DNA from: Bacillota bacterium
GTDB lineage: Bacteria > Bacillota > Sulfobacillia > JAIMAT01
Length of the DNA stretch: 41,439 bases
Reading direction: 5' to 3'
Assembly: GCA_023511835.1 (NCBI GenBank)
Contig: JAIMAT010000011.1
Span: 1-41,439 of the forward strand
Shown here: piece after piece, positions 682 to 9,700 of the stretch
Layout of the letters: each line of letters begins with the position of its first letter
How positions within the stretch are numbered: the stretch's first letter is position 1
Program-made: the position numbers and the translations under genes
The notes under the pieces: model-generated
Database searches by the model: none
Told to the model about the DNA's origin: nothing
The model's input: only the letters and a program-made list of their open reading frames with translations

Positions 682-3528
682 TCAGGCGCCCAGCCCGCTT
701 CGCGTCGCCCAGAGCGCCAGCGCCGTCCGGTTGGGCAGGTCCAGCTTCTGGAAGATGTTGCGCAGATGGCGGTCGACCGTGCGCGGGGAGATGGCGAGGC
801 GGGCGGCGATCTGGCGGTCGGTCAGGCCCTCGGCCACCAGCGCAGCCACCTCCGCCTCGCGTGCCGTCAGCCCGTTCGGCAACCCCCGCCCGGGGGCGAG
901 GCCGTGGCGCGCCAGCTCCACCTCCGCCGCCGCCAGGGCACCGGCGGCCGGCGTCTCCGCCAGAAGCGCCCGGGCCGCCTCCAGGTCGGCCGCCGCGGTC
1001 GCCGCCGTCGCGGAGCGCCCCGCCAGGAGGGCGGCGCGCTCCAGCCGCACCAGGGCCGCCTGCAGGGGAAAGCGGCAGCGCTCCGCCCGCTCCATCGCCT
1101 CGGCCAGGGAGGCGGCCGCCACCCCCTCCTCGCCGCGCTCGCGGGCCAGACGGCCGACCAGGCGACCGGCGCGGACGAGCGTGTAGCTGGAGCCCGAGAG
1201 GCGGGCGTCCTCCAGCGCCTCCCGGGCCGCCCGCCAGGCGGCCTCCGCCTCGCCGCGGCGGCGGTGGTAGAGCGCCCGCGCCACGCGCACGTTGGCGCGG
1301 AAGAAGGCGGCCCGGGCCAGCGGCGGCCAGGCCTCGGCCGCCTCCAGCCACGCCAGCGCCCCCTCCTCGTCGCCCAGCGCCACGCAAAGCTCGGCGCGGA
1401 GCGCGTGGGCGAGGACCAGGAAGTTGTGGCTGACGGGCACGGGGTCTTCGGGGCGGAAGGGCGGCACCGACTCCAGCAGGGGTTGCGCAGCCGCGGCGTC
1501 GCCCAGGTCGAGCAGGATCCAGCCGGCGTACCAGCGGAGCGAGCCGCCGAAGCTCTCGGGGTGCTGCCGGGCGCACTCCAGCACGTCGCGCCGGGCGCCC
1601 GGCCAGTCGCCGCGGAAGTAGCGGTAGACGCCCGCCAGGCTGTAGCCCGGCGGCATCAGGCCGAGACCTCCGCGGGCGGCCAGCTCCTCCTCGAGCCGAC
1701 CCAGCTCCCCCGCCACGGCGTCCACCGCGGTCGCCGGCATCGCGGGACCGACCAGCAGGAGCAGGAGCTGGTTGGCCTTGAGGCGTGCCGCGTTGCGGAT
1801 GTCGCCCAGGCGCGCCGCCCGCTCCGCCGCCTCGCCGCACATGGCGGCCGCCCCGGCGAAGTCGTCCGAGGTGAAGGCCAGGATCATGCCCACGTTGAGC
1901 AGGTCGTGGCTGGCGCTGGGCCGCTCGCGCGCCGCCAGGCGGCGGAAGAGGCGTTCCGCCTCCTCGGCCTGGCCGCGGTGGGCGAGGACGCCGACGCAGG
2001 CCGCACCCGCCCGCGGGTAGCCGGCCACCTCGCCGAAGAGCTCCCGCTCCAGGCGCTCGAAGCGCGGGTCGCCGCGCAGCTCCTCCTGGGCGGCCATCAC
2101 CGCCTCCGCCTCCTCCAGGGCGCCGCGCTCCTCGCGCACCACCGCCAGCCAGGCGAGCAGGTGGCGTGCCCAGACCTCCACCGCCCGGTCGCCCGCCTCG
2201 GTCGCCGCCGCCAGCGCCTGCCGGAGCGCCTCCGGCGCCCCCGGTCGGCCGCCGGCCTGCCGGCACCAGCCCAGCTTGAGGAGGAGCTCCGCACGGCCGG
2301 GGTCGCCCTCCGGCAGGAGGGCCAGCGCCTGCCCGTACCGCTCCTCGGCCTCGGCGGGAGCGCCCAGGCGCAGAGCGCGGTCGCCGGCACGAGCGAGGAA
2401 GCCCGGCGCGCGCGGGTCGCCGGCGCGCTGCAGGTGGAGGGCGAGCGCCTCCACCTCGTCCGGGGCCACCGCCTCCAGGGCGGCCGCGGCGCGGGCGTGC
2501 CAGCGCCGCCGGCGCGGCCCCGCCAGCCGGCCCAAGAGCGCCTCGCGGACCAGCGTGTGGGTGAAGGCGAAGCGCTCGCCGGCCGCGTCCAGCGGCTCGA
2601 GGAGACGGGCGTCGACCGCTTCCTCGAGCAGGCCGGCCAGCTCCTCCTCGCCCAGGTCGACCGTCCGTTCCAAGAGCGCGAGCGGAAAGTCGGCCCCCAG
2701 CACGGCCGCCGCCTCCAGCACCGCCTGCGCGGCGGGCGAGACGTCGGCCAGGCGGCGGTCGATGGACTGCCGGACGCTCGTCGGCAGCGGCTCCCCCTCG
2801 CCGGGCAGGGCGCCGCCCCGCACCACGGGCAGGAGCAGGTCGCGCAGAAAGAGCGGCAGCCCCTCGGTACGGCGGTGGAGCCGGCGCGCCAGCGCCTCGC
2901 TCTCCCCGCCGCCCAGGCCGAGCGCCTCCAGGAGCTCGGCCACCTCCTCCGGCCCCAGGCCGCCCAGGGCCATGCGCACGGCGCCGGCGCGCTCCACGTC
3001 GGGCAGCCAGCCCCAGAGCGGGTGGCCGCGGCGGACGGCCTCCGAGCGGACGGTGGCCAGGACCAGCGCCGGCAGCTCGCCCAGCAGCCCGGCCAGGTGG
3101 CGCGTCAGGTCGAGGGTGGCGGCGTCGGCCCAGTGGAGGTCCTCCACGAGGAGCAGGAGCGGCCGCTCGAAGCGGGCGAGCCAGCCGGCCAACGCCCGGG
3201 CGGTCTCGTAGGGGCTCCACGCGCCCGGCGCCGTGCCGAAGGGCGGAGGAAGCCCGGCCGGTTCCCGCTCCTCCTCCCGCGCCAGCGCGGCCACCAGCTC
3301 GCGCCAGGGGCCGAAGGGAGGCGTCTCGCCCGGTCCCGGGCAGCGGCCGGCCAGCGCCAGCGCCGGCCCGGCCTGCGCCATCAGCCGGCGCACCAGCGTC
3401 GACTTGCCCGCGCCGGCCTCCCCCTCCACCAGGACAAGGCGGCCGGCTCCCGCCTGCGCCTCCCGGAGCCGGTCCTGCAACTCCTCCAACTCGCGCCGGC
3501 GACCGACGAAGGGGATCGCCTGTTCCAC
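682..3528 (-). CDS. LuxR-family ATP-binding transcriptional regulator (LAL type)
   Basis: The product is about 948 residues, the usual size for large ATP-binding LuxR regulators. It has an AAA_16 ATPase domain near the N-terminus with FVGRRREL, Walker A (GEAGAGKST, about residues 33-41) and Walker B (LLLLVEDLHWAD). A long middle of alanine/leucine-rich helical repeats, probably TPR-like, follows. The C-terminus is a LuxR/GerE helix-turn-helix beginning LTAREAEVAALVAEGLTDRQ and including ISPRTVDRHLRNIFQKL. Such proteins couple nucleotide and ligand sensing to DNA binding; the ligand here is unknown. I chose the GTG at 3528 because GGGAGGTGG lies upstream and the conserved domain starts at once. 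A TTG at 3645 or ATG at 3633 would add a low-complexity extension. It is divergent from the methyltransferase gene. Confidence 0.9.
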   Translation of the reverse strand: MEQAIPFVGRRRELEELQDRLREAQAGAGRLVLVEGEAGAGKSTLVRRLMAQAGPALALAGRCPGPGETPPFGPWRELVAALAREEEREPAGLPPPFGTAPGAWSPYETARALAGWLARFERPLLLLVEDLHWADAATLDLTRHLAGLLGELPALVLATVRSEAVRRGHPLWGWLPDVERAGAVRMALGGLGPEEVAELLEALGLGGGESEALARRLHRRTEGLPLFLRDLLLPVVRGGALPGEGEPLPTSVRQSIDRRLADVSPAAQAVLEAAAVLGADFPLALLERTVDLGEEELAGLLEEAVDARLLEPLDAAGERFAFTHTLVREALLGRLAGPRRRRWHARAAAALEAVAPDEVEALALHLQRAGDPRAPGFLARAGDRALRLGAPAEAEERYGQALALLPEGDPGRAELLLKLGWCRQAGGRPGAPEALRQALAAATEAGDRAVEVWARHLLAWLAVVREERGALEEAEAVMAAQEELRGDPRFERLERELFGEVAGYPRAGAACVGVLAHRGQAEEAERLFRRLAARERPSASHDLLNVGMILAFTSDDFAGAAAMCGEAAERAARLGDIRNAARLKANQLLLLLVGPAMPATAVDAVAGELGRLEEELAARGGLGLMPPGYSLAGVYRYFRGDWPGARRDVLECARQHPESFGGSLRWYAGWILLDLGDAAAAQPLLESVPPFRPEDPVPVSHNFLVLAHALRAELCVALGDEEGALAWLEAAEAWPPLARAAFFRANVRVARALYHRRRGEAEAAWRAAREALEDARLSGSSYTLVRAGRLVGRLARERGEEGVAAASLAEAMERAERCRFPLQAALVRLERAALLAGRSATAATAAADLEAARALLAETPAAGALAAAEVELARHGLAPGRGLPNGLTAREAEVAALVAEGLTDRQIAARLAISPRTVDRHLRNIFQKLDLPNRTALALWATRSGLGA

Positions 3529-4574: not shown

Positions 4575-6545
4575 TCAGGGCTCGTCCGCCCTGGCGAGAT
4601 AACGCTCGGCGAACTCCGCCGCCCCGAGCGGCAGGCTGAAGAGAAAGCCCTGATAGAGGTCGCACTCGGACTCCTGCAGGACCGCCAGTTGCGTCTGGCG
4701 TTCCACGCCCTCCGCCACCATCTCCAGCTCCATGGCGTGGGCCAGCCGACCGATGGCCAGGAGGACGGCCGCGTCGTCGGCCCGGACGTCGATCTCGCGC
4801 ACGAACATCTGGTCCACCTTGACGCCGTCCACCGTCAGCTCGCGCAAGACGGCCAGCGAGTTGTAGCCCTCGCCGAAGTCGTCGACCAGGATGCGCACGC
4901 CTGCCTGGTGGAGCGTCCTCAGCTTCTCCGCGGTCTCCTCCTGGTTCCGGATGAGCGCCGTCTCCGTGATCTCCACCGCCAGCCAGGCCGGCGGGACGTC
5001 CCAGCGGGCCAGGGTCGAGAGAAAGCGCTCCACGAAGTCGGCGCGCTGCATTTCGGCCGGGGAGACGTTGACCGCCACCGGCAGCGGCAGCCGCCCCTCC
5101 TCGCGCCAGCGGGCGATCTGCCGGCAGACTTCCTGGAGGACGAAGCTGCCGATCTTGTGGATCAGGCCCACTTCCTCCGCCACGGGGATGAACTCGGCGG
5201 GCGGGATGTTCCCGAGCTCGGGGTGCCGCCAGCGGACGAGCGCCTCGGCGCTGACCACGCGCCCGCTCTCCAGGTCCACCTGGGGCTGGTATTCCACGTA
5301 GAACTCCCGCTCCGGGTCGCGCAGGACCCTGCGCAGCTCGCTCTCCAGGCGCAGCCGGTCCCAGGCCCGCTGGGTCAGGTAGGGCATGTGGACGTGGTAG
5401 CGGTTCTTCCCCTGCCGCTTCGCCTCGTAGAGGGCGGCGTCGGCGTTCTTCAGGAGCGCTTCGGCCGTCTCGCCGGCGGCGGGGTAGAGGGCGATGCCCA
5501 CGCTCGCCGTCAGGGAGAACTGGTAGCCGTCCCAGGCGACGGGCTCGCCCAGCCGCCGGACGATGCGCAGCGCCACGGCCTCGGCGTTCTCCACCGCGGA
5601 GAGGCGGGGGAGCACCACCACGAACTCGTCGCCGCCGAAGCGCGCCACCGTCTCGTCGCCCCGCACGCAGCCCTCCAGGCGGCGCGCCACCGCCGCCAGC
5701 ACGGCGTCGCCCGCCTCATGTCCCAACGCGTCGTTGACCAGCTTGAAGTTGTCCAGGTCCACGTACATCACCGCCAGGAGCCCTCTCCGGGCGCGCGCCT
5801 CCCGGATGGCTTCGGCCAGGCGCTCCTCCAGCTCCCGGCGGTTGGCCAGCCCGGTCAGCGGGTCGCGCCGGGCCAGTCGCTCCGCCTGCTCCACGGCCGC
5901 CTTCAGCGCGCTGACGTCGCTGGCGATGCAGAAGGCCCCGATGGCCCGGCCGGAGTGGTAGATGGGGACGAAGCGCGTGAGGAGGCTCACCTCCCGCCCC
6001 TCCGGGTGACGCGCGGCCAGCTCCAGCGGGGCCACCGGATGCAGGAAGGCTTCACGGAAACGCCTGGTGGCCTCGGGGATCTGCGCTTCGGGGAACCACG
6101 ACCAGCCGCGCGCCCCCAGGAGCTCCGCCCGCGGCCGCCCCAGGATCTCCTCGGCGGCCCGGTTGACCGCCACCACCCGTCCTCCGAGGTCGAGGATGGC
6201 CGCCGCGTCGACGGTGTGGTCGAAGAGCGCCCGGAAGGCCTCCCGCTGGAAGGCGAGGCTTGTGAGCCGCAGGCGGTCGACGTGGGTGAAGTAGAGAACG
6301 AGGCCGAAGAGTCCGGGAGTGTCCACCACCAGGAGCCAGAGCATCCGCCAGCTCGCCTCGGAGAGCGGGCGCACCTGGGCGACCTGGCCGCGGATCCAGG
6401 GTCCGAGATAGGTGTAGCCCACCAGCTCCGTCAGAACGGCGCCGGCGGCCAGCGCGAGGAAGCGGAGCAGGTAGAGGCCCCACGGCCGGAAGGCGCCCCT
6501 CCTTTCCTCCGCCAGCGAAGCCAGCAGGTCGGTGTCGCTCGCCAC
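4575..6545 (-). CDS. Membrane-bound PAS-GGDEF-EAL cyclic-di-GMP enzyme
   Basis: The 656-residue product has two N-terminal membrane segments (about residues 24-48 and 68-88) with a short loop between them. A PAS sensor domain (about 100-215), a GGDEF domain and an EAL domain follow. The GGDEF motif is intact at 304-308 (RFGGDEF), so diguanylate cyclase activity is possible. The inhibitory I-site reads RGDE instead of RxxD, so product inhibition may be weak. The EAL motif (EALVRW, 434-439), DDFGEG (555-560) and the EGVE segment near the end are intact, so phosphodiesterase activity is likely. The gene begins 16 bases after the chemoreceptor stop and is probably cotranscribed with it, linking chemosensing and c-di-GMP. 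The start is GTG with a poorly spaced AGAGG. Confidence 0.92.
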   Translation of the reverse strand: MASDTDLLASLAEERRGAFRPWGLYLLRFLALAAGAVLTELVGYTYLGPWIRGQVAQVRPLSEASWRMLWLLVVDTPGLFGLVLYFTHVDRLRLTSLAFQREAFRALFDHTVDAAAILDLGGRVVAVNRAAEEILGRPRAELLGARGWSWFPEAQIPEATRRFREAFLHPVAPLELAARHPEGREVSLLTRFVPIYHSGRAIGAFCIASDVSALKAAVEQAERLARRDPLTGLANRRELEERLAEAIREARARRGLLAVMYVDLDNFKLVNDALGHEAGDAVLAAVARRLEGCVRGDETVARFGGDEFVVVLPRLSAVENAEAVALRIVRRLGEPVAWDGYQFSLTASVGIALYPAAGETAEALLKNADAALYEAKRQGKNRYHVHMPYLTQRAWDRLRLESELRRVLRDPEREFYVEYQPQVDLESGRVVSAEALVRWRHPELGNIPPAEFIPVAEEVGLIHKIGSFVLQEVCRQIARWREEGRLPLPVAVNVSPAEMQRADFVERFLSTLARWDVPPAWLAVEITETALIRNQEETAEKLRTLHQAGVRILVDDFGEGYNSLAVLRELTVDGVKVDQMFVREIDVRADDAAVLLAIGRLAHAMELEMVAEGVERQTQLAVLQESECDLYQGFLFSLPLGAAEFAERYLARADEP

Positions 6546-6561: not shown

Positions 6562-8652
6562 TCAGGCCGCGGCGGAGCCGGTCGCGCCCGCGCGCCGCCG
6601 CGCCGGCTCGGAGCGCGCCTCTTCGCGCGCGCGGCCCTCCTGCCGGTCGATCCGGAAACGGCCCACGTGCTCCTCCAGCGCCTGGGCCAGACGGGCCAGC
6701 TCCTGCGCCCGCTGCTGTACGGTGGAGCTCGACGCCTCCAGCTCCTCCACCGCGGCGGAGACCTCCTCGGCGGAGGCGGCCGTCTCCTGGGCGGTGGCGG
6801 CCAGGCTCTCCACGCGCGAGCTCACCTCGCGCGCCGAGGCCGCCATCTCCTCGGCCGCCGAGGCGTTCTCCTCGGTGGTGCCCGACAGCTCCTCCATGGC
6901 CTTGGAGACCGAGCGCGCCTCCTCGGCCGCCCGCCGGGTCCCTTCGGTCATCCTGCCCACGGCTTGGACCGTCCCCTCCACCGCCCGGAGGATGCGGCCC
7001 AGCGCCTCGCCCGCCTCGTCGATCCGCGCCGTGCTCTCCTCCACCCGGCCGCTGTTCGTCTCCATGATGGCCACGGCCTCCTGGACGGCCGCGGTGATGG
7101 AGCCCAGGAGCGACGCGATCTCCTCCGTGGAGCGGGCCGACTGCTGGGCCAGCGAGCGGATCTCCTGGGCCACCACGGAGAAGCCGCGCCCGTGCTCCCC
7201 GGCCCGCGCCGCCTCGATGGCGGCGTTGAGCGCCAGGAGGTTGGTCCGGTCGGCGATCTCGGAGACCGCCTGCACGATGTCGCCGATCCGTTTGGATCGC
7301 TCGCCCAGCGCCCGCACCGTCTCGGCCGCCTCGTTGGAGCCGGAGCGGATCTCGGGGAAGCGGGCGAGCACCGCGCCGATGGCGCTGGCTCCCTGCCGCG
7401 TGGCGTCCAGCGCGCCCTGCGATATCTCCAGCACGTGCTCGCCCTCCCGGGCCACGGAGTCCACCTGCTGCATCAGCTGCGCCAGCGAACGCGAGGCCGT
7501 CTCCACCTGGCCCGCCTGCCACTCCGCCCCGCGCGCCACCTGGTCGACGGCCTGCCCCACCTGGGCCACCGCCGCGCCCGCCTCCTCGGAGTCCGCAGCC
7601 TGCTGGCTGGCGGCCTGGGCGACCTGCTGGACCGCCTGGCTGATCTGGGCCGTGGCCTGGGCTGCCTCGCTGCTGGAGAGCGCCAGCTCTCCCGAGAGGC
7701 GGCGGACGTCCCGGCTCGAGGCCCGCAAGGCGCTCACCAGGCCGCGCAGGTTGTGCAGCATGCGGTTGAAGGAGAGGGCCAGCTCGCCCGTCTCGTCGCG
7801 CGCACGAAGCTCGATCTCCCGCGCGGTCAGATCGCCTGCGGCCACGCGGGCGGCCGCCTCGGCCACGGCCCGGACGGGCGCGGAGAGCGCGCGGGAGAGG
7901 ATGAGGCCGAAAAGGAGCGCCAGCAGCGCCGCGGCCACGGTGACGGCGAGCGCGGTGGTCCGCGCCGCGGCGGCCGCCGCCTCGCTCGCCCGCTGCCTCG
8001 CCTCAGCCTGGCTGCGGGCGAGCCCGACCAGGCGGTTCACGTCGGCCTTGACCGCCTCCCGCTGCTGGTAGAGGGCGCTCCCCGTCCCCACCAGCGCGGC
8101 GCCGTCCGCGCCGGCGGCCTCCGCCTGCGCGAGCACGCCGGCCACGGTCGCCTCGTACGCCCGGTCCGCCTTCTCCAGCGCCGCCAGCGCCGACTCCTCC
8201 GCCGCGGAGAGGACCAGCCCCTGCAACCGCCCCTCCACCTGCCGGATCGACTGCTCCGCCGGGGCCACCTGCGCGCGGACCTGCGTGTCCCGCGTCAGCA
8301 CGTAGGTGACCGCAAAGCGCTGCAGGTCGCCCTGCAGCCCCTGCAGCTGCTCCGCCAGCTGGAGCGTGGCGTCGCTATGCGTCACCACCCGCTGGTAGCC
8401 GCCGATGGCGCCGTCCAGCCGGTCGAGGATGACCAGGTTGCCCGCCAGCACCAGCAGCGCCATCGCCAGGAAGCCGCCCAGCAGCTTGACGAAGAGCGGG
8501 ATCCGCAGCTGCCGGCCGCTTCCGGCCGCCTGCCGCCCCGGCCGGGCCTGCGCCTTCTCCGGCGCGGGGGCGGGCTCCTCGAGGCTGGAAAAATCTACCC
8601 CCCCCCCCCGTTGCCACTTGCTTCCATACGCTCTTCTTCCATTGTCATCCAC
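6562..8652 (-). CDS. Methyl-accepting chemotaxis protein
   Basis: The product is a transmembrane chemoreceptor of about 696 residues. It has TM1 at about residues 53-76, an extracytoplasmic helical sensor domain (about 77-210), TM2, a HAMP domain and a long MCP signalling coiled coil. The conserved hairpin tip reads [20 protein letters not shown] and is the CheA/CheW contact region. Two starts compete. A GTG at 8652 reads straight through the run of 12 G. An ATG at 8640-8642 ([11 protein letters not shown]...), with AAGGTGG six bases upstream, would hit a stop right after the G-run unless the run gains one G. I annotate the GTG because it needs no indel. A sigma-28-like promoter lies about 40 bases upstream, fitting a motility regulon gene. 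The GGDEF/EAL gene follows directly. Confidence 0.9.
8598..8609 (-). repeat. Poly-G tract (12 G) in the first codons of the chemoreceptor gene
   Basis: Twelve consecutive C on the plus strand are twelve G on the coding strand. They lie about 15 codons into the chemoreceptor reading frame. Tract length decides which of two competing start codons is in frame with the receptor body. It is the longest homopolymer seen in the window. Confidence 0.9.
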
Positions 8653-8687
8653 CTTCGCTCCCCGTATTCGAAGGTTTTCGCCATGGC

Positions 8688-8714
8688 TTATCGCGCGTGG
8701 TTGGCCTGGATTTA
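8688..8714 (-). promoter_or_regulatory. Sigma-28 (FliA/SigD)-like promoter of the chemoreceptor operon
   Basis: On the minus strand TAAA (8714-8711) is followed by 15 bases and then CGCGATAA (8695-8688). The flagellar sigma factor consensus is TAAA-N15-GCCGATAA. The -35 core and spacing match exactly, and six of eight -10 positions match. A transcript would begin near 8681, about 30-40 bases before the chemoreceptor start. This is a visual match in a biologically fitting place; it has not been scored against background. Confidence 0.55.
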
Positions 8715-8718
8715 TGGA

Positions 8719-8746
8719 GGGGCGGCCCCGGCTGCGGGGCCGCCCC
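8719..8746 (-). terminator. Hairpin after the DUF4097 gene
   Basis: A perfect 11-bp stem (GGGGCGGCCCC / GGGGCCGCCCC) with a 6-base loop lies 15 bases after the stop of the DUF4097-like gene and just upstream of the chemoreceptor promoter. It lacks a T-run. Its position suggests it separates the two minus-strand transcripts. Confidence 0.5.
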
Positions 8747-8761
8747 GGCGGGGGGCAGACT

Positions 8762-9700
8762 TCAGAGCTCGTCCAGCAGCCGCTCCGCCTCCTCCGGGTC
8801 GATCTCGCCCCGGGCCAGCGCCTCGAGCACGGCGCGGGCGTCGGGGTAGCGGCGGCCCGGCGCGGGCGGCTCGGGCCCCGCCGCCGGCGCCTTACCCGGC
8901 TGGCCGAAGAGGCGGACGCGGCCGGCACCGGTGCTCAGGCGGATCCAGCCGCTCCCCGGGCCCAGCTCGTCCACCGAGTAGAGGCCCACGCCGCCGCGCC
9001 GGGTGAAACGGATCCCGGCCGTGCCCTCCACGCTGCCCGCGCCGGTGCGCACCTCGAGGCGGCCGCCGCGGACGCCGTCCAGGTAGAGGCTGACGTCGCC
9101 GAAGCCCGAATGCACCTCGATGCGTGCCTCGCCGTCGCTCTCGGGCCGCAGCTCCACCTGCCCGGCGCCGCTGCGGAGCGAGGCCTCCCGGCCCACGCGC
9201 GCCGCGAACGCCACGTCGCCCGCCCCCGAGCGGATCTCCGCCTGCTCGAGGAAGCCCCCCCGCACCCGTACGTCGCCAGCCCCGCTGTGCACCAGGAGGC
9301 GCCCGCGGTGGCCCTCCACCGTCACGTCGCCCGCCCCGCTGTCGACGCGCAGCTCGCCCGAGCAGGCGCGGACGTGCACGTCGCCGGCCTTCACCTCCAC
9401 CCGCCCGGAGCCGCCCAGCCCGGCCACCTCCACCTCGCCCGTCGCCTGGACGTCCCACCGCTCCAGCCCCGGCGGCGCGGTCACCTGGAGCCTCGCCCCG
9501 GCGTCGGCCGCAAGCCAGCTCCTCCAGCGCACCGGCATCTCGATGCGGAGCCGCTCGCCCTCCCGGTCCACCCGCGCCTCCGGCGGCAGCTCCAGGCGCC
9601 AGCCGTCGCCCGCCTCGAGGCGGAGCGCCGCCAGGCGCCCCCGGATCTCCAGCGCGCGCACGCCCTCGAAGTCGCCGCGCCCTTCCTCTCGCTCCGCCAC
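8762..9700 (-). CDS. DUF4097-like beta-repeat protein with C-terminal SHOCT-like helix pair
   Basis: The 312-residue product is dominated by short beta repeats with a SGAGDV-type turn at residues 121, 139, 158, 177, 198, 219 and 257, mostly 18-21 residues apart. This is the pattern of DUF4097 (adhesin-like, single-stranded beta-helix) proteins. The last 30 residues ([20 protein letters not shown]...) form a SHOCT-like helical hairpin, often found at the C-terminus of such bacterial proteins. No signal peptide or membrane segment is visible, so it is probably cytoplasmic or surface-associated by other means. The gene starts with GTG and follows the MFS transporter by about 50 bases on the same strand. 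Its function is unknown; related proteins are linked to envelope stress, which is only a family-level hint. Confidence 0.85.

Follow-up and report, generated by a model that had tools for sequence, protein, structure and literature searches.

Gene content and organisation of the locus

The window analysed here is a stretch of 41,439 nucleotides that makes up the whole of contig 11 (GC 74%) of a MAG of 2.36 Mb in 156 contigs, referred to below as G000. It encodes a methyl-accepting chemotaxis protein (hereafter the receptor), whose gene lies between a DUF4097 gene upstream and a PAS-GGDEF-EAL gene downstream. The features of the region are as follows.

4575-6545, minus strand: PAS-GGDEF-EAL gene, beginning 16 nt past the receptor stop codon (EAL 1.8e-69, GGDEF 3.8e-49)
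6562-8652, minus strand: methyl-accepting chemotaxis protein gene, 696 aa from the GTG at 8652, stop codon at 6562-6564
8651-8675, minus strand: inverted repeat ACCTTCG-N11-CGAAGGT
8719-8746, minus strand: 12-bp perfect stem with a 4-nt loop, 3' of the DUF4097 gene
8762-9700, minus strand: DUF4097 gene, upstream of the receptor, with a 59% relative in the congeneric genome G002

The receptor was identified as a methyl-accepting chemotaxis protein by its MCP signalling domain (MCPsignal, residues 441-591, E 6.5e-37; PF00015, 127.4 bits against a cut-off of 34.6) together with a HAMP domain (residues 252-303, E 4e-14; PF00672, 53.1 bits against a cut-off of 25), and hydrophobic stretches that would suit transmembrane helices are visible by eye. 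The receptor gene and the PAS-GGDEF-EAL gene are likely to belong to one operon.

Terminator prediction gave no hit, the 12-bp stem at 8719-8746 included, and a scan for sigma-70 promoters found none. The 3' arm of the inverted repeat covers the AAGGT of the Shine-Dalgarno-like sequence of one candidate start (ATG 8642, see below), while its loop contains that of another, GGGGAG; by its position the repeat could be an operator or a hairpin that selects between starts. The predicted RNA fold of the leader over 8560-8720 was no better than that of shuffled sequences (z 0.32), and the three matches returned by an Rfam scan of 8400-8900 (501 bases) each fell below the gathering score. The leader (8610-8719) is AT-richer than the contig, with a GC fraction of 0.527 vs 0.74, and AT-rich sequence extends about 15 bases past the G tract described next. 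The dip in GC at the tract (minimum 0.53) is one among 13 low-GC stretches in the window, whose minima range from 0.49 to 0.58.

A tract of 12 G near the start of the receptor gene

As a preliminary description of this DNA had stated, a run of 12 G is located about 15 codons into the chemoreceptor gene. The tract comprises exactly 12 G, begins in receptor codon 15 counted from the GTG at 8652, is separated from the nearer end of the contig by 8.6 kb, and is a genuine feature of the assembled sequence. No other mononucleotide run in the window reaches 8: G/C runs of length 6 occur 25 times, those of length 7 six times, those of lengths 8 to 11 not at all, and that of length 12 once. A geometric fit from the shorter runs predicts 0.0098 runs of at least 12 per window, or 0.56 per 2.36 Mb, which places the tract about 100-fold above the expectation extrapolated from the runs of the window. 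Markov models gave expectations for runs of at least 12 in the window of 0.19 (order 1), 0.008 (order 2), 0.015 (order 3) and 0.008 (order 5); like the geometric fit, these models were fitted on the window itself with the tract included. In a dinucleotide-shuffle control, which together with the Markov model of order 1 is the most permissive of the nulls, a run of nine G was unsurprising, a mean of 6.6 matches being expected vs four seen.

Start codons and reading frames around the tract

The candidate starts and associated signals are listed below. Shine-Dalgarno (SD) energies were computed against what we take to be the anti-Shine-Dalgarno sequence.

8595-8597, minus strand: TAG, closing the frame of ATG 8642 at a tract length of 12 G
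8598-8609, minus strand: homopolymeric tract of 12 G
8615-8617, minus strand: GTG 8617, third frame, in the receptor frame at 11 or 14 G only, weak SD (-3.3 to -3.9 kcal/mol)
8640-8642, minus strand: ATG 8642, in the receptor frame at 10 or 13 G only among lengths 9 to 15, SD energy -8.1 to -8.4 kcal/mol
8646-8648, minus strand: ATG 8648, same frame as ATG 8642, SD energy -9.1 kcal/mol, or -7.2 with minimum spacing
8649-8655, minus strand: AAGGTGG, Shine-Dalgarno-like, 6 nt before ATG 8642
8650-8652, minus strand: GTG 8652, in the receptor frame with 12 G and also with 9 or 15, SD energy -7.1 kcal/mol
8658-8663, minus strand: GGGGAG, Shine-Dalgarno-like, 5 nt before GTG 8652

With the tract at its assembled length, translation from GTG 8652 enters the receptor, and that from ATG 8642 gives a reading of 15 aa and then meets the TAG just after the run. 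A frame table for 9 to 15 G agrees that a thirteenth G would bring ATG 8642 into the receptor frame, and 10 G would do likewise. Apart from the 15-aa reading and the case of 10 G, these points had been made in the preliminary description, which had missed several other starts, namely ATG 8648, ATG 8627 and ATG 8684 in the frame of ATG 8642 (and so in the receptor frame with 10 or 13 G), and GTG 8617 in the third frame. Its placing of AAGGTGG 6 nt before ATG 8642 is correct, but its view of ATG 8642 as the best-looking start is weakly supported, given SD energies of -8.1 to -8.4 vs -7.1 kcal/mol and a difference in codon usage that is not significant. Codon usage was rejected as an arbiter of the true frame ahead of the tract. 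Frame A had an advantage of 6-10 bits over the GTG frame, yet in the comparison that was tested for significance shuffled sequences attained the difference in 23-25% of cases (P ~0.24), and the third frame equalled frame A.

A start scan found no receptor-frame ATG, GTG or TTG downstream of the tract until ATG 8463, a codon within the first transmembrane helix (helix assigned by eye). A canonical start must therefore lie upstream, with the tract translated; initiation at a rare start codon (CTG or ATC) 3' of the tract is a conceivable alternative. According to the frame table every frame has some start upstream, and on paper no length between 9 and 15 G silences the receptor outright. A change in length would thus shift initiation between starts, not abolish the gene. 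The earlier proposal that tract length decides which start works holds in its frame arithmetic and in that the tract is translated from canonical starts, but it had overlooked that GTG 8652 has a Shine-Dalgarno-like sequence of its own. In common with contingency genes, the locus has a long simple repeat in its 5' coding region, and on paper a change in its length switches the frame or the start.

Paralogues and congeneric genomes

The closest paralogue of the receptor, at 60%, is encoded on contig 77 of G000 (L174:2972-4909). From its last in-frame stop (2879-2881) to ATG 3035 in the first helix this gene has no in-frame ATG, GTG or TTG. A CTG six bases after AGAGGTGG occupies the site equivalent to ATG 8642 and, from the sequence, is the likeliest start of the paralogue. 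This correspondence slightly favours ATG 8642 as the ancestral start. The N-terminal tails ahead of the first helix vary among the paralogues.

The genomes searched included no second one of the species. In the two congeneric genomes, G001 and G002, the best matches to the receptor reach 40-41%, and the gene upstream of these matches corresponds to the upstream neighbour of another paralogue (contig 13). The G002 relative of the DUF4097 gene sits near a contig end. The receptor was not found by tblastn (E up to 0.01) in 8 kb of G002 around this relative, and tblastx against the same region gave, among the matches listed, short fragments only. Absence of the receptor beside the G002 DUF4097 gene could reflect an inserted or rearranged segment as well as a false join, and as a test of the junction synteny was set aside: the G002 region neither confirms nor excludes the junction.

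Long G tracts in the genus and class

On contig 9 of G002 a further long tract, of 13 G (7782-7794), starts at codon 9 of an EAL-domain gene of 413 aa (EAL E 9.2e-43), and it is the sole tract of at least 12 G found in that genome.

Contig 9 of G002, 6582-7820 (L214:1080-2321): EAL-domain gene, GTG start, SD energy -12.6

This gene is in frame at 13 G, and past the tract the two alternative frames end early, one within 2 codons and the other within 4. At 12 or 15 G the EAL frame would be opened by an ATG located 57 nt upstream, so that the putative switch would not be cleanly off. In G000 a 69% relative was found at a contig start, in its 3' part only, leaving the 5' end without a counterpart. 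The G002 order, in which the EAL gene follows a gene judged ClpX-like by eye, is not shared by G000; since the tract lies ~280 nt past the end of the similarity to the G000 ClpX-like locus, the break in synteny is not located at the tract.

Runs of G or C of at least 10 number 12 in G000, five of them of at least 12; counting runs that are preceded by a non-G base, there is one in G001 (11) and two in G002 (13 and 10). Of the six tracts of at least 12 G that the three congeneric genomes contain, two lie close to a start, within coding sequence and on the G strand, which gives P 0.0125 in a post hoc binomial test that uses our own classification and an expectation of ~3% per tract, assuming one gene per kb. 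When all 15 tracts of at least 10 G in the three genomes were taken, the same test gave P 0.073. A tract on contig 63 of G000 was excluded from the start-proximal pair because its flank looks foreign.

On contig 1 of G000, runs of 10 and 11 G at 57551 and 59254 lie within a cell-division gene cluster. The 11-G run is at the head of a minC frame (Pfam), and the 10-G run comes right after the next frame, which is MinD-like by eye.

A class-wide habit of start-proximal G tracts was not supported, the pattern of Shine-Dalgarno sequence, start and poly-G being present in 25 of 154 class genomes vs, by our own count, 20 of 154 for a backwards control. The 25 loci, one per matching genome, are mixed: in L220, L222 and L231, for instance, a long open frame follows the tract, and in others the frame is short or masked. 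Loss of mismatch repair as a source of hypermutability was ruled out, as mutS1 and mutL were found in all three congeneric genomes. Their presence means that slippage would be damped, which counts against a switch.

Comparison with known systems

Dixon et al. in 2007 reportedly found several functional initiation codons in lic2A of Haemophilus influenzae, with a potential for differential expression. The receptor gene resembles lic2A in having a repeat near the start plus multiple initiation codons. In H. influenzae, a pathogen, the repeats of the lipo-oligosaccharide genes are CAAT tetranucleotides and switching is known (PMC3938747), whereas here the repeat is poly-G and the switch putative.

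Among chemotaxis receptors, tlpB of Helicobacter pylori has a variable G-repeat in its mRNA leader that is the target of the sRNA RepG; the repeat has 12 G in strain 26695, its length sets expression, and the gene is co-transcribed with a second one (PMC8295292). The likeness lies in a chemotaxis receptor with a 12-G repeat near the start of its gene. In tlpB the repeat belongs to the leader and acts via RepG, whereas here, for canonical starts, the tract is inside the coding region and would act by frame. A G-repeat in an untranslated leader, which in the RepG type of control pairs with a C/U-rich loop of the sRNA, is thus not what is found for the canonical starts, a rare start after the tract aside.

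In Listeria inlA, 5' homopolymeric tracts have been described as a mechanism of gene inactivation, a frameshift leaving a peptide of 8 aa, and in the accompanying survey of homopolymers poly(A) and poly(T) were the enriched kinds (PMC2831843). The receptor shares with inlA a 5' coding homopolymer and a short frameshift peptide (15 aa here, from ATG 8642), but the tract is poly-G in a contig of 74% GC. The Clostridioides difficile genes pdcB and pdcC encode phase-variable c-di-GMP phosphodiesterases (PMC9286219). Phase variation of c-di-GMP turnover is thereby comparable to what the 13-G EAL gene of G002 would undergo, although in pdcB and pdcC it proceeds by inversion through site-specific recombination and here a homopolymer would be responsible.

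A literature search on poly-G phase variation in Firmicutes, thermophiles or Symbiobacterium found nothing. A search on phase-variable poly-G tracts in chemoreceptors led to work on Campylobacter methylomes, and chemoreceptors bearing homopolymers may already be in print for Campylobacter and Treponema. By analogy, the mode of action of the tract would parallel the start switching of lic2A and recalls the 12-G repeat of tlpB. The tract is a plausible contingency switch of a known kind, and the receptor a putative member of the phase-variable genes.

Interpretation of the tract

We propose that the 12-G tract is a start-proximal poly-G contingency (phase-variation) tract of the chemoreceptor gene, a tentative reading of the sequence to which we would give a probability of about 0.38. 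It is favoured by the combination of an outlier run, a site on the coding strand within the first 20 codons, a start in each frame and the 13-G EAL gene of G002, and also by the DUF4097 and receptor genes showing no visible cut at the tract. Slipped-strand mispairing in replication would gain or lose Gs. At 12 G, translation of the receptor would begin at GTG 8652; at 10 or 13 G it would begin at ATG 8642 or ATG 8648, with an output that may be similar or higher, and at 11 or 14 G a low output would be expected from GTG 8617. The downstream GGDEF-EAL gene, 16 nt away, would perhaps be co-affected through coupling, and such variation may have a role in fitness.

Almost as likely is an artefact, either a miscounted homopolymer, with a fixed true frame from ATG 8642 or ATG 8648, or a false contig join, made by an artefact of poly-G reads, that set the leader beside a receptor body from elsewhere. 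The assembly is in 156 contigs, of which the window is one, and other tracts of this MAG look suspicious. On contig 63 (L146), an acyl-CoA dehydrogenase frame (2764-3396) opens at about residue 128 of 378, in mid-protein, two bases past a 12-G tract (2751-2762), and the GC content shifts from ~0.70 on one side of the tract (0.89 adjoining it) to 0.59-0.66 on the other. The site is likely to be a chimeric join or a decayed gene; the match also ends early, at 306 of 378, so that natural decay is possible there. The contig 63 tract is preceded by a TTG at -31, which is in frame, and by an ATG at -27, so that a start-proximal look can arise at suspect sites. Contig 39 has a 19-G tract 90 nt from its end. 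On contig 42 (L145:2323-3462) an ftsW-like match breaks off at profile position 122/357, with cyclase-like sequence following; this frame looks chimeric, though the change is away from its tract. Among 41 relatives 28 exact 12-G tracts were counted, three of which belong to G000 and were handled separately; of the 25 taken, all outside this genome and its genus (L176-L203), 14 are no more than 120 bases away from the end of their contig, which suggests that in this class assemblies break, or are seeded, at long runs of G. Together with contigs 63 and 39, these tracts are grounds for treating long G runs in such MAGs with caution. The CTG of the contig 77 paralogue, at the site corresponding to ATG 8642, speaks for a miscount in particular.

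The preliminary description had offered a miscounted homopolymer as the simpler alternative, and this has gained weight from contig 63, contig 39 and the tracts near contig ends, but the neighbouring genes at 8598-8609 are not visibly cut. The order of upstream gene, stem, AT-richer leader, Shine-Dalgarno sequence, start, tract, N-terminal tail and helix is that of a contiguous gene start. For a random join, two sequences on the same strand would both have had to break close to a gene start, and the ~15 AT-rich bases that persist past the tract also speak against it.

Less probable, though it deserves consideration, is that the gene is an ordinary one, in which initiation is fixed at GTG 8652 with its GGGGAG, the tract encodes glycines in a cytoplasmic tail ahead of the first helix, and changes in its length are rare and non-regulatory. 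As assembled, GTG 8652 is in frame and its Shine-Dalgarno sequence is well spaced. The variable tails of the paralogues, the presence of mutS1 and mutL, and shorter G runs near other starts in the genome, such as the 11 G at the minC frame, agree with this explanation, but the lack of G/C runs of 8 to 11 in the window makes a run of 12 an outlier, and another frame has starts whose SD energy is as good or better.

An extension of the contingency reading to the genus, with poly-G contingency tracts employed on chemotaxis and c-di-GMP genes (the receptor and the G002 EAL gene), seems improbable at present. Under it, the receptor tract would be a three-state dial, because start strength differs from one frame to the next.

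If the tract is an artefact, it warns that claims of phase variation from MAGs should wait until the long G runs concerned have been checked for joins and miscounts. If, as we tentatively prefer, it is a contingency tract, poly-G switching of chemotaxis, described in Helicobacter, would be extended to an uncultured high-GC lineage of Bacillota, and bet-hedging of sensing in natural populations would be suggested.
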